From Anaeropeptidivorans aminofermentans (GTDB lineage: Bacteria > Bacillota > Clostridia > Lachnospirales > UBA5962), in assembly GCF_940670685.1 (NCBI RefSeq), contig NZ_OW711693.1:3348001-3412000 (forward strand): 64,000 nt of DNA, written 5' to 3'. The position numbers were made by a program, and so were the translations under genes. Shown here piece by piece: positions 57,466 through 62,257 of the stretch; the stretch's first letter is position 1, and each line of letters begins with the position of its first letter. Below the pieces are notes generated by a model. That model made no database searches and was not told the origin of the DNA. It saw only the letters and a program-made list of their open reading frames with translations.

Positions 57466-57680
57466 AATGGAACTCCTTTTCCAATTTTAAAAACCTGTTA
57501 AAGTATGCTGCAAACTTCAGGCTTGTGGCTGAATTCAAATAAAATAGGAACATTGTCAAATGGAACAGGAAAAACTCCTGAGCGGTATAAAAGCAAATTC
57601 ACTATACGTATTTTTAATTCAACTATAATAAAGCTTTATATTCTATAAAAATGCCCCTTTTCCAGCCTGCAGTACCTTCA

Positions 57681-57700: not shown

Positions 57701-57752
57701 TACATACTAAAGATACCTTATAGTCCATTTTCTGTCAAGAAAACCCATTATA

Positions 57753-57882
57753 TATAGTAAATTTCACACAAGGATGCAATAAAAATCTATTTTTCATAAA
57801 CGGCTTAAACATATAAAACCCCTGTGTTTAAGCCATTCAAAACAGACGACTTTTATTACTGTTTCATCTGAAATTTACTATA
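57753..57882. repeat. Family A MITE, 130 bp, perfect ends
   Basis: 14-bp perfect inverted ends TATAGTAAATTTCA/TGAAATTTACTATA. Inside are AATAAAAATCTATTTTTCAT, GGCTTAAAC...GTTTAAGCC and GACTTTTATTACTG. It aligns, inverted, with 61904-62033. Confidence 0.8.
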
Positions 57883-58182
57883 GATGTCAACCTTAAAAAG
57901 TTTTATAACCTCATCCTTGTATCTTTTTTAAAGTTCACTTAGTATAAAAAAGAGCGCAAAAAAGGCCGCTTATAGAGTAAATCTCCTAATGGGCCTTTGG
58001 GGATATTTAAACCATCTATATTTGTCATCAATTTAAATATATAAAAATTACCAAGGCTTCGGCTAAAAATTTCTTTCCTTTATCCCTTTATTTTATGTGA
58101 AATGCCTTAAACAAAGCAAATGTTTTTATATGCCTGAGATTGCAAGCTAAACTCTTGTGGTCTCTCATATCGTTTAGTATGG

Positions 58183-58300
58183 CTGAAATCATAGTATTGC
58201 CAAATGGAACAGGAAAGAAATCCTGACTGGATTAAAATACCCTTTACGGCATTTTACGAAACAAAAATTCTTATTGATTTTCTCTTATTTTATGTCTTCT
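58183..58300 (+). repeat. Family C repeat, left of the DUF5058 locus
   Basis: ATTGCCAAATGGAACAGGA, CTGGATTAAAATACC, GCATTTTACGAAACAAAAAT, TTCTTATTGATTTTCTC. Same orientation as the copy at 61780. A partial copy (TTGTCAAATGGAACAGGA) lies near 57554. Confidence 0.7.
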
Positions 58301-58561
58301 TAGAGCCAAATACTTACTACGGAATAAAATCTATTTGACTATATAATAAAGACAGTATTTCTATCATAAAATATCCGCACATGCAATCTGTCTACACATT
58401 AGGAACAAAATATACTGGTCTTTTTATTTTATCAAAGGCATACAATCCTATTAAGCTAGTATCCTCATTATTAAACATATAAGTATTTAGTGAAAAATCT
58501 ATGTTTTCTATATTTCTAAAAACTTCGCTAATCAAGCGAAATTTCCTTTAAAAGCGGCGGA

Positions 58562-59002
58562 CTATAAGCCGAATGATGCAAATATCTTAATCATCCACAC
58601 TACCCCAAAGCCCATGGCTATTAACATTAACAAATCGATTATAATAATAGGCAAAGAAAATTTCTTCCATCTATAGGGCAGCTTCTTTACAGTATATTCC
58701 GTAGATGCAGCTATTTTTACAAATATCATCATAATACCCATAAAACAAAATACCAGTATAATCCACCGGATAATTTGATTTGACATTGTGCCAAGAAGTA
58801 TGGCCGATATGTATATCAAGCTGAACATGAGTACTGTCTTGGCAGAGCTTTCTGAATATTTACGCAAAGCCCCCTTAATTTCTTCTGCCATGTCAATGTG
58901 CTTGCTTTTGTAAAACATCTCACCTATGCTTATAATAATTGACCAGCAGATCGCAAAAGCGGCAACAGGCGAAGCGCAGATACTATAGATAAATTGCATC
59001 AT
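58562..59002 (-). CDS. Small integral membrane protein, unknown family
   Basis: 146 residues from ATG 59002, chosen because GGGAGG lies 6 nt upstream. Four hydrophobic segments (FIYSICASPVAAFAICW; TVLMFSLIYISAILLG; WIILVFCFMGIMMIFV; SLPIIIIDLLMLIAMGFG) with short charged loops. I recognise no family. It is divergent from the DUF5058 operon, sharing its 470-bp upstream spacer. Confidence 0.6.
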   Translation of the reverse strand: MMQFIYSICASPVAAFAICWSIIISIGEMFYKSKHIDMAEEIKGALRKYSESSAKTVLMFSLIYISAILLGTMSNQIIRWIILVFCFMGIMMIFVKIAASTEYTVKKLPYRWKKFSLPIIIIDLLMLIAMGFGVVWMIKIFASFGL

Positions 59003-59475
59003 TTCAAGCCTCCCAACCATTATTCTATGTCTCATTATATTAGCATAGCTCTTAGAATAAAACCTCTGTTTCCATAGGCATATATGGCCTTTATATGTTA
59101 CAGCCTCTATACATCAGGCAAGATATTCTGTTTTTTAACTTCATATCTTTTTATTCGGTTTTCAAGAAATATTTTATTTCGGGCTAAAATTTATCACATT
59201 TTCCATTCACATTAATAAGTATGAGGACTTTGCATGGCGAATACTGAATCTTTCATTTCTACACAAAATAAAGTATTCGTAATTATGGTTTTCAGGATTC
59301 TGCCAGATATCCAGATATAGCAGAATGCATTTCAATCCGAAGTGCCTATAGCTTAAAACACAAAATATCCTCTGATATTTTGCAGCACTCTGTCACTTCG
59401 GCTTCAAGGTAATTCAGCTATAAACCGCAAAAAAGGCCTCTTGCTTATATAACATTAAAAAAGAGGAGGGTGTAA
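59003..59475. other. Divergent spacer containing the DUF5058 leader
   Basis: The left part (59003-59290) is AT-rich with no gene. The right part is the structured leader described separately. Confidence 0.5.
59297..59470 (+). promoter_or_regulatory. Structured leader with SD-pairing potential, possible riboswitch-like element
   Basis: Hairpin 1: ATTCTGC/GCAGAAT (59297-59303/59320-59326). Stem 2: CCGAAGTG/CACTTCGG (59337-59344/59394-59401) enclosing CAAAATATC-CTCT-GATATTTTG (59361-59382). TATAGCT (59347-59353) can also pair with AGCTATA (59416-59422), crossing stem 2 as a pseudoknot. CCTCTT (59437-59442) can pair with AAGAGG (59461-59466), covering part of the GAGGAGG ribosome site. It matches no riboswitch class I know. 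Confidence 0.4.
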
Positions 59476-60201
59476 ATGACACAGGAATATTCTGATATGG
59501 CTAATAGTATCGTCATGTGGATTGCTTGTGCACCAGGGGTTTTAATAGTACTTTTTCAATCTTTTTTGTTTTTTAAGAAAAGCAAAGCAGATGCTATTAA
59601 AATCGGATTAACCCAGAAGCAGGTTACAAGCGCCGTCAGAAGCGCTGCCGTAACCTCTATCGGTCCTTGCTTTGTAATGCTGACCGCTATGCTGACTCTA
59701 ATCCTTTATGTAGGGGCACCCCTTGCATGGCTTAGAGTTGATTTCATCGGCTCTGTTTCTTACGAACTACAAGGCGCTGATTTCGCAGCCAAAGGTATGG
59801 GCATTGAATTAGGTTCTGCCGCTATGGATGCAAACTACTTAGCCACTGCTGCAATTGTGATGGCCGGCGGCTGCATTGGCTGGGTTATATTTGCAGCGCT
59901 GTTTGCCGATAAGATGGATAAGGTTAATCATCTTATGTCAGGCGGGAACGCCGCTCTTGTACCTATCCTTGGCACAGGTGCCCTAATCGGTGTTTTTTCA
60001 TCTCTTACCACAGACAGGGTTTATCCTTTTAGAAACCAAGCCTTTGCCGTAATTATTTCAGGTCTTATTATGTTTATAATCCAAAAGTATAACAAAAAGG
60101 CAAATAAGCAGTGGGTTAAAGAATGGGGCCTTACGATTTGCATGATTGTGGGCATGGTGGGCGCAACTATACTTGAAGGATTGAATGTGCTGCCAAAATA
60201 A
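59476..60201 (+). CDS. DUF5058 membrane protein
   Basis: A 241-residue protein with about six transmembrane segments. Family-like features are ANSIVMWIACAPGVLIVLFQS at the N-terminus and KKSKADAIKIGLTQKQV with SAAVTSIGPCFVMLTAML. DUF5058 proteins usually occur with a second membrane protein and amino-acid- or peptide-handling enzymes, suggesting a transporter subunit. A strong GAGGAGG precedes the ATG. First gene of a three-gene run, 20 nt before the next. Confidence 0.8.
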   Translation: MTQEYSDMANSIVMWIACAPGVLIVLFQSFLFFKKSKADAIKIGLTQKQVTSAVRSAAVTSIGPCFVMLTAMLTLILYVGAPLAWLRVDFIGSVSYELQGADFAAKGMGIELGSAAMDANYLATAAIVMAGGCIGWVIFAALFADKMDKVNHLMSGGNAALVPILGTGALIGVFSSLTTDRVYPFRNQAFAVIISGLIMFIIQKYNKKANKQWVKEWGLTICMIVGMVGATILEGLNVLPK

Positions 60202-60221
60202 AGGAAGGATGTGATTGCATA

Positions 60222-60926
60222 ATGAATGCTGAACAACAAAAAGTATTCGATAATGATTATATGCCTTATATTATTAAATGGGGTAAAATTACCTGCTGGC
60301 TCTCAATACCGCTGATTTTTATACCGGCTTTTGCCCTAGCCATTTTTTATGGCGCCGCTCCTTCTATCGGGGGCATTATGACAGGCCTGATTGCATTGGT
60401 TTCAGCTATGGTTGCATGGTATGTAGTTGACCCTATAACGCTGTTTCCTATTTTGCATGTACCCGGAATGTATCTTACTTATATCGCCGGAAACTCTAAA
60501 GAAATTCGGGCTCCTGCGGCCACCTCTGCTTTATCTTCTGCAGACGTTCAGGCAGGTACCCCTCAGGGAACGGTTATAAGCTGTATTGCTATTTCAACCT
60601 CTATATTTATAAGCATTGCCGTTATGACTTTGGTTGCTATTGCAGGCCAATTTATATTAAGTTTATTGCCAAGTGCCGTAATAAGCTCCCTAAACTACTT
60701 ACTGCCTGCTCTTTTCGGTGCAATGCTTGTTCAAAGAATTATGATGGATTATAAAACCTCTGCTATTGTTATACCTGCGGCCTTTTTCTTCCGCTGGTGT
60801 ACCCTTCAGGGATTCTTCTCCTGGCTTCCATGGGGAGGAGGGTATGCACAAATCCTTCTTTGTGTAATAGCAGGGACTATTGCAGCAAGAAAGGTTCATG
60901 CTAAGATTATAAACCAAAGCAAATAA
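60222..60926 (+). CDS. Membrane partner of DUF5058
   Basis: A 234-residue protein with about six hydrophobic segments (CWLSIPLIFIPAFALAIFYG; GGIMTGLIALVSAMVAWYV; ISCIAISTSIFISIAVMTLVAIAG). A conserved-looking cytoplasmic loop is GNSKEIRAPAATSALSSADV. AAGGAAGG precedes the ATG, 20 nt after DUF5058. I cannot assign a named family with confidence; the pair probably forms one transporter. Confidence 0.7.
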   Translation: MNAEQQKVFDNDYMPYIIKWGKITCWLSIPLIFIPAFALAIFYGAAPSIGGIMTGLIALVSAMVAWYVVDPITLFPILHVPGMYLTYIAGNSKEIRAPAATSALSSADVQAGTPQGTVISCIAISTSIFISIAVMTLVAIAGQFILSLLPSAVISSLNYLLPALFGAMLVQRIMMDYKTSAIVIPAAFFFRWCTLQGFFSWLPWGGGYAQILLCVIAGTIAARKVHAKIINQSK

Positions 60927-61048
60927 TTTTATAGTAAATTTAAAGCATTATGAAACACGGCTCATAATGCCTATAAATACTTTAAAATATTTAAGAATAT
61001 ATCTTTAAATATACTTTTCCAAGCAAATTATTAAAGGGGGATTAACAA

Positions 61049-61744
61049 ATGGGATTTAATGAAAAAGTTCATGCGTTTATAGCGGCTAAATTTTATGTGC
61101 ATTTGACAGAAGAATTCGGTGAGAGAGGTAAAAAAGCTTTTATCCACGCCACACAATATTACGCTGAGCAAAGAGGACGGAGAATGGCTCAGAGGGCTAT
61201 CCGTGACGGCTATGATTTAACCTATGAAACTTATCTTCAATATGGGGAATGGGTTAACACACAGTATACTATTGAAAATGAAGTTTCCAATCAATCAAAA
61301 ATTGAAGAAATCAGCCCACATTATTTAATACATATCCACCGCTGCCCATGGCATGCCCAGTTTAAAGAAATGGGCCTTATTGAAGCAGGCCATGAATACT
61401 GCGAGCATTTAGATAACTCTATCTGCCGGGGCTTTAACCCCTATCTTACCTATGAGGTTGACCAGACGCTTCATAAAAGCGACTATTGCATTCATAGAAT
61501 TTTAAATACCAATTATAAAGAGATTCCCCAAAAACCTAAAAAAGCAGCATATCTTCAAAGCTTCGATTACCACTGCGGCCATTCCTATTGGTCCTATGCA
61601 GAGGTAACAGGGGCTATCTTTGCTGAAAAAGGTGAGCAAGTAAACACTCAGGTTCTTAAGGACTTTACGGATGAATATGGACAGGAAATGGCAGATAAAT
61701 TAGTTTCTTATAAAAATACAAATTTTAATGTGACAAATTGCTAA
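61049..61744 (+). CDS. L-2-amino-thiazoline-4-carboxylic acid hydrolase family protein
   Basis: A 231-residue protein of the ATC hydrolase family: N-terminal helical half (EEFGERGKKAFIHATQYYAEQRG) and a Cys/His-rich C-terminal half (HIHRCPWHAQFKEMGL, YCEHLDNSICRGFNPYL). In Pseudomonas the family enzyme opens the thiazoline ring of L-ATC on the way to cysteine, but clostridial members are diverse and mostly untested. AAAGGGGG precedes the ATG, about 120 nt after the membrane pair. It probably processes what the pair imports. Confidence 0.8.
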   Translation: MGFNEKVHAFIAAKFYVHLTEEFGERGKKAFIHATQYYAEQRGRRMAQRAIRDGYDLTYETYLQYGEWVNTQYTIENEVSNQSKIEEISPHYLIHIHRCPWHAQFKEMGLIEAGHEYCEHLDNSICRGFNPYLTYEVDQTLHKSDYCIHRILNTNYKEIPQKPKKAAYLQSFDYHCGHSYWSYAEVTGAIFAEKGEQVNTQVLKDFTDEYGQEMADKLVSYKNTNFNVTNC

Positions 61745-61779
61745 ATTAAATATCCATATCCTTTTATATACTTAAATTC

Positions 61780-61890
61780 ATATGAAATAGCGGCATTGCC
61801 AAATGGAACAGGAGAAAATCCTGGCTGGATTAAAATATCGTAAACGGTATTTTGCAAAGCAAAAATTCTTATTGCTTTTCTCCTGTTTAA
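61780..61890 (+). repeat. Family C repeat, right of the ATC locus
   Basis: CATATGAAATAGCGGCATTG, CCAAATGGAACAGGA, GGATTAAAATATCGTAAACG, TATTTTGCAAAGCAAAAATT, TTATTGCTTTTCTCC. Same orientation as 58183; inverted to 32787. Confidence 0.75.
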
Positions 61891-61903
61891 TGCTTTTTAA
61901 GTC

Positions 61904-62033
61904 TATAGTAAATTTCAAATTAAGCGGTAATAAAAATCGTATATTTTGAATGGCTTAAACATGGGGATTTTATATGTTTAAGCCTTTTATGAAAAATAGA
62001 TTTTTATTACATCCTTCAGTGAAATTTACTATA
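61904..62033. repeat. Family A MITE, 130 bp, perfect ends
   Basis: 14-bp perfect ends TATAGTAAATTTCA/TGAAATTTACTATA, exactly the same length as 57753-57882 and inverted relative to it. Inside is GGCTTAAAC...GTTTAAGCC. Confidence 0.8.
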
Positions 62034-62142
62034 AATGCTTATAAGTTTATAAAAGCAAATTGACTATACAATCTATAAAATTTGGATTGCGAGGCAATCC
62101 AAACCGTTCCTAATTAAATTCATGCCTTTTTATCATTATCAA

Positions 62143-62181: not shown

Positions 62182-62184
62182 AAG

Positions 62185-62257
62185 CGTCCCCGAGACGACT
62201 CGAACGTCCGACCCTTCGCTTAGGAGGCGAATGCTCTATCCACTGAGCTACGGAGAC
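62185..62257 (-). tRNA. tRNA-Arg (CCT)
   Basis: Read on the minus strand, acceptor GTCTCCG pairs with CGGGGAC (one G-T), the anticodon loop CTCCTAA gives CCT, and the T-arm is TTCGAGTC-type. It is 73 nt with G discriminator and no encoded CCA. Confidence 0.95.

Follow-up and report, generated by a model that had tools for sequence, protein, structure and literature searches.

What is the function of three adjacent genes in the genome of Anaeropeptidivorans aminofermentans, and were they brought to their place by the repeats which lie on both sides of them? The genes are situated near the end of the window, the stretch of 64,000 nucleotides analyzed here (contig NZ_OW711693.1, positions 3,348,001 to 3,412,000), where two multi-pass membrane proteins are followed by an enzyme of the ATC_hydrolase family. 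An initial annotation, made from the letters of this DNA, had proposed import and hydrolysis of a cyclic or thiazoline amino-acid-like compound as a possible cysteine source, and movement of the whole segment between two inverted repeats. Gene neighbourhoods in many genomes support the import and hydrolysis, while the substrate is inferred. We read the operon as encoding two proteins which together import a cysteine-type compound, either cyclic or N-substituted, and a ring-opening hydrolase which yields cysteine, and give this reading a probability of about 0.55. The repeats were found to be incidental.

Organization and conservation of the operon

Open reading frames (ORFs) and Pfam matches agreed with the gene order described earlier, in which two membrane proteins 20 nt apart are followed, after 122 bp, by the enzyme. 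The first protein matched DUF5058 (PF16481) over its full length (211 bits, profile positions 1-222 of 222). Its partner gave no match in the Pfam and NCBIfam libraries, which were both scanned. The enzyme scored 62.4 bits against PF14196 (ATC_hydrolase), for which the cut-off is 28.1, over profile positions 5-136 of 145.

Conserved linkage of the three families, which the initial annotation had proposed to search for, was analyzed by an alignment-based scan for the enzyme using one genome per species, and 77 loci were obtained. DUF5058, partner and enzyme genes were present in the same order and on the same strand in 13 of them, 12 of which are outside the host species, in Oscillospiraceae-type and Erysipelotrichaceae genomes. 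In these 12 loci the gaps are 1-72 bp between DUF5058 and partner and 11-62 bp between partner and enzyme. Within the order to which the window belongs, 295 genomes were sampled; the enzyme was found in 4 and the partner in 33. The partner being commoner than the enzyme, the DUF5058-partner pair appears to work with other enzymes also. The enzyme tree showed intermixed host families, with Synergistota placed among Bacillota, and many of its inner branches were weak. It is compatible with horizontal transfer, but the trio may also have arisen only once.

Linkage of the enzyme with genes of cysteine metabolism

The fullest gene order observed in relatives was M20 amidohydrolase, DUF5058, partner, enzyme and CyuA-type L-cysteine desulfidase. 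The M20 gene precedes the trio in loci L107, L108, L110 and L112, and in L103, L107, L108, L111 and L112 the enzyme is immediately followed by the CyuA-type gene. In L123 the CyuA-type gene immediately precedes the enzyme, and in L144 and L160 it is part of the enzyme's cluster; these three loci have no DUF5058 in the stretch examined around the enzyme. In L110 the CyuA-type gene is on the opposite strand, about 4 kb away. In all, linkage of enzyme and CyuA takes at least three different forms. An M20 gene was found within 6 kb of the enzyme in 15 loci, and L128 and L131 have a PatB-family C-S lyase, scoring above the curated cut-off, in the vicinity of the enzyme. The repeated linkage with a cysteine-specific desulfidase, along with the C-S lyase, points to cysteine as the product.

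The CyuA-type genes were assigned by their PF03313 match, and the L107 protein matches solved L-cysteine desulfidases. The cysteine and the glutamic acid of the GCTE motif are essential; both residues are specific to CyuA and lacking in serine dehydratases (PMC12647591). This motif was present in the CyuA-type proteins of all 10 loci examined, including the host genome's own copy (L173). The copy in L160 reads as two overlapping frames.

In Pseudomonas, L-2-aminothiazoline-4-carboxylate (L-ATC) is converted to L-cysteine by ATC racemase, L-ATC hydrolase and carbamoyl-cysteine amidohydrolase, with N- or S-carbamoyl-cysteine as intermediate (reviewed in PMC10821248). In two rhizobial replicons the PF14196 gene is directly followed by a gene for a hydantoinase/carbamoylase-family amidase, an arrangement expected of this known pathway with its carbamoyl-cysteine intermediate (PMC10821248).

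Genes for a fumarate-reductase-like flavoprotein and a 2Fe-2S protein adjoin the enzyme in L144, L160, L153 and L155. In L144 and L160 CyuA and M20 genes are also positioned beside them, which suggests that the cluster is part of a larger pathway.

Conserved residues and structure of the enzyme

Residue conservation analysis in 67 enzyme homologues showed that C99, C118, D122, C147 and H175 are invariant. C99, D122 and C147, along with G128, are identical in rhizobial PF14196 members, and C118 is not kept at its column in them; the one rhizobial protein which was scanned scored 140 bits against the family. The structure of the enzyme was modelled confidently, with a predicted local distance difference test (pLDDT) score of 97 and a predicted template modelling (pTM) score of 0.93. 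Its best structural matches were Bet3/TRAPPC3 proteins and the phenol-sensor domains of MopR and PoxR. Since the E-values were 0.004 and above and the template modelling (TM) scores about 0.3-0.5, a relation to the V4R/Bet3-type fold is taken as a lead only; though the top matches of the model, these proteins are sensors or trafficking subunits and not hydrolases. Sequence searches found no significant solved relative of the enzyme, DUF5058 or the partner.

The DUF5058-partner pair

Around the partner matches analyzed, the genes for DUF5058 and partner adjoin each other; in L087 a more sensitive search was needed to detect the partner. Elsewhere the pair is accompanied by M20 proteins, a carbamoylase-family amidase and Amidohydro_3-family amidohydrolases. 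Profile comparison gave no significant match between DUF5058 and partner. On the basis of their constant pairing, the adjoining genes and the hydrophobic profile, we infer that the two proteins form an importer. No mention of DUF5058 was found in the literature searched. PF16481 is a family without known function, and the present analysis connects it with a constant partner gene and with amidohydrolases; this gives a testable role to a membrane family which so far had none, and to the family of its unannotated partner.

In L082, the DUF5058 pair and an M20 gene have a glycyl-radical enzyme and its activase as neighbours, and the gene order in L083 is similar. The glycyl-radical enzyme of L082 scores below every NCBIfam equivalog cut-off reported.

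Proposed function and alternative explanations

DUF5058 and its partner would import a small cysteine-type amino acid that is cyclic or N-substituted, with L-ATC, formed from cyanide and cystine, as the leading candidate. Ring opening by the PF14196 enzyme would give a product of the N- or S-carbamoyl-cysteine type, from which an M20-family amidohydrolase would take off the carbamoyl or acyl group, and CyuA would then split the cysteine to pyruvate, ammonia and sulfide. In animals ATC arises from cyanide and cystine (PMC11269370). Such animal-made ATC could be available in the gut, and other masked cysteine or ring compounds could serve as well.

Several observations weigh against this reading. 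In the window neither an M20 nor a CyuA gene adjoins the trio. In favour of the reading, the host genome does have its own CyuA-type protein, encoded at 2.87 Mb and 44-47% identical to the enzyme-linked ones, and 17 M20 matches elsewhere; three M20 proteins are 41-43% identical to that of L107. DUF5058 is missing from the surroundings of most of the 77 enzyme loci, and in G003, the nearest member of the family, an amidase stands directly upstream of the enzyme instead. Clade-specific synteny inflates some of the neighbourhood counts, isoleucyl-tRNA synthetase (IleRS) being found in the vicinity of the enzyme in 9 loci. The structure model of DUF5058 was poor (pLDDT 70), and Foldseek with this model gave only noise and matched no known transporter. 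The window enzyme is 26% identical to rhizobial members nearer to the core of PF14196, and its C-terminal helical part (residues 172-219), which includes the invariant H175, is absent in the two rhizobial members examined. As these lack the C-terminal part, the substrate may differ between the two groups.

This divergence also speaks for another explanation, in which the pair and the hydrolase act on another kind of nitrogenous ring or N-acyl compound, such as a hydantoin, a thiohydantoin or an N-carbamoyl amino acid. Cysteine would then not be formed, and the Pfam name would be misleading. The occurrence of the DUF5058 pair beside unrelated amidohydrolases and a glycyl-radical enzyme fits such a substrate, as do the flavoprotein and 2Fe-2S genes next to members of the enzyme clade and a Liv-type ATP-binding cassette (ABC) transporter beside another member in L092. 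The linkage with CyuA in its different arrangements and with the PatB C-S lyase, however, points to cysteine, and this explanation is considered quite possible but less likely. It is very improbable that the membrane pair and the enzyme are neighbours by descent alone, with no functional connection. The many enzyme loci lacking the pair and the synteny seen with IleRS would agree with descent, but order, strand and short gaps of the trio are kept across three families amid different surrounding genes.

Two known systems stand close to the preferred reading. Like the Pseudomonas pathway, the window has an enzyme of the Pfam family named for L-ATC hydrolase, and relatives of this enzyme adjoin M20 amidohydrolases or a carbamoylase-family amidase. 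In contrast to that pathway, the present system belongs to anaerobic gut Firmicutes, its enzyme is divergent with a C-terminal extension, and enzymes of this type are linked to a two-protein membrane system and a cysteine desulfidase, and in the window no M20 gene adjoins the trio. E. coli cyuP-cyuA encodes a dedicated cysteine importer and a desulfidase (PMC9040844). Importer genes of the relatives likewise share an operon with CyuA, as in this system of anaerobic cysteine breakdown, but here the importer would be DUF5058 with its partner, and a hydrolase step comes between uptake and the desulfidase, which suggests a masked form of cysteine as substrate.

A wider proposal, offered as speculative and on present evidence unlikely, is that DUF5058 and partner represent a new family of two-protein importers which take up amino acids in masked (cyclic, N-carbamoyl or N-acyl) form, and that with the PF14196 enzyme, M20 and CyuA gut anaerobes convert ATC, a product of cyanide detoxification, to cysteine and hydrogen sulfide. 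The preferred reading itself suggests a way for gut bacteria to regain sulfur from masked cysteine, possibly from ATC, and diet, cyanide detoxification and gut hydrogen sulfide would thereby become linked.

Repeats around the operon

All the A and C repeats of the initial annotation, including the inverted pair of 130-bp A copies, were found at their positions, and an additional partial C copy was detected (Table 1). The A copies match over 57750-57884 and 61902-62036; they are inverted, 89% complementary and 130 bp long including TA at each end, and both end in TATAGTAAATTTC/GAAATTTACTATA. The two C copies, which match over 58176-58303 and 61775-61901, are about 80% identical to each other. 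In the 3.76-Mb genome, at least 40 near-full copies of A, mostly 89-95% identical to the left copy, and about 40 sequences related to C were observed. Alignment of 30 A copies showed an element of 126 bp enclosed by TA in nearly all of them; outside this TA the sequences are unrelated. As it is short, has inverted ends and flanking TA and occurs in many dispersed copies, A is a miniature inverted-repeat transposable element (MITE)-type element with a TA target site. It resembles other MITEs of this kind in being non-coding as well, and differs in that no parent transposase was found for it: the genome has zero matches to PF13358 (DDE_3, IS630-type), the only family searched. A plasmid search found no A copies.

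Exact inverted A ends at the right spacing occur at 23 genome sites, one with an unrelated interior. The 13-base A terminus, with at most one mismatch, has 675 matches in the genome compared with 28 for the reversed control. These counts suggest that the genome has several MITE families with common ends. Termini of the TATAGTAAATTT type are present in hundreds across the whole genome, and an example of A-type ends around unrelated internal sequence is G000:C1:2947048-2947182.

Among the 40 A matches listed, two close pairs (within 4.3 kb) were found and both are inverted, one at this locus and the other, with its copies 4 kb apart, at 1.72 Mb. When 40 copies were placed at random, the mean was 1.7 close pairs and 0.86 inverted close pairs, and 58% of the runs had at least one inverted close pair. 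With at least 40 dispersed copies, and 0.86 simulated inverted pairs against two observed, an A bracket of this kind is expected by chance. Neither A nor C sequence was found in the 12 trio loci of other species. The near-identical sister metagenome-assembled genome (MAG), UBA11329 (L093), carries the same segment at the same site as the window; an assembly gap of two N lies inside its right C/A block and makes this block unreadable. The comparison for an empty site in close relatives, proposed earlier, accordingly gave an occupied site and no A-marked junction. The initial annotation had named the same genes at the same site without repeats as evidence against movement; relatives do carry the genes without the repeats, but at other sites.

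The A and C flanks are independent insertions of abundant dispersed elements which did not carry the cassette. That the inverted A copies are the ends of a composite mobile unit which carried the 4.3-kb segment is scarcely credible and was rejected: two complete inverted copies do bracket the segment, but dispersed copies each have their own TA on both sides, about one such pair is expected by chance, the trios elsewhere are free of A and C, in the sister MAG the site is likewise occupied by the segment, and the genome lacks a DDE_3 match.

Table 1. Features of the locus, in window coordinates
Feature	Position	Strand	Remarks
DUF5058 membrane protein (PF16481)	59476..60201	+	241 aa; several hydrophobic segments; Pfam match
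Partner membrane protein	60222..60926	+	234 aa; ORF and hydrophobic profile; without Pfam or NCBIfam family
ATC_hydrolase-family enzyme (PF14196)	61049..61744	+	231 aa; zero hydrophobic segments; Pfam match
Small membrane protein	58562..59035	-	157 aa; no family in Pfam; oriented divergently to the operon
A repeat, left copy, MITE-like	57753..57882	+	126 bp and TA on each side; incidental
A repeat, right copy	61904..62033	-	inverted relative to left copy; incidental
C repeat, left copy	58176..58303	+	one of about 40 related genome sequences; incidental
C repeat, right copy	61775..61903	+	abuts right A element; incidental
Third, partial C repeat	57532-57592		missing from the initial annotation
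Perfect 9-bp inverted repeat	60945..60970	+	GCATTATGA, 8-nt loop, TCATAATGC; in partner-enzyme gap

Other features of the region

A scan for RNA families in the region turned up a tRNA alone, and promoter matches showed no excess over shuffled sequence. The partner-enzyme gap is longer in the window (122 bp) than in the trio loci of other species (11-62 bp). It opens with a 19-bp sequence common to six other genome sites, next to the 9-bp hairpin, and this region (60927-61030) may represent a small inverted-repeat element, now decayed, by which the gap was lengthened. The small membrane protein has a 27% identical homologue at 6751-7188 of L110, directly 3' of the enzyme in a trio locus, the only one detected outside the host species; it is possibly an accessory gene of the operon. 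The tRNA-Arg(CCT) gene at 62184-62257 is intact in the window. In UBA11329 (L093, from 6962 onward) a segment carrying regulatory genes and an integrase, named from its sequence as tyrosine-recombinase-type, splits the tRNA gene at window position 62226, and this insertion looks like an integrative element with tRNA-Arg(CCT) as its putative site.

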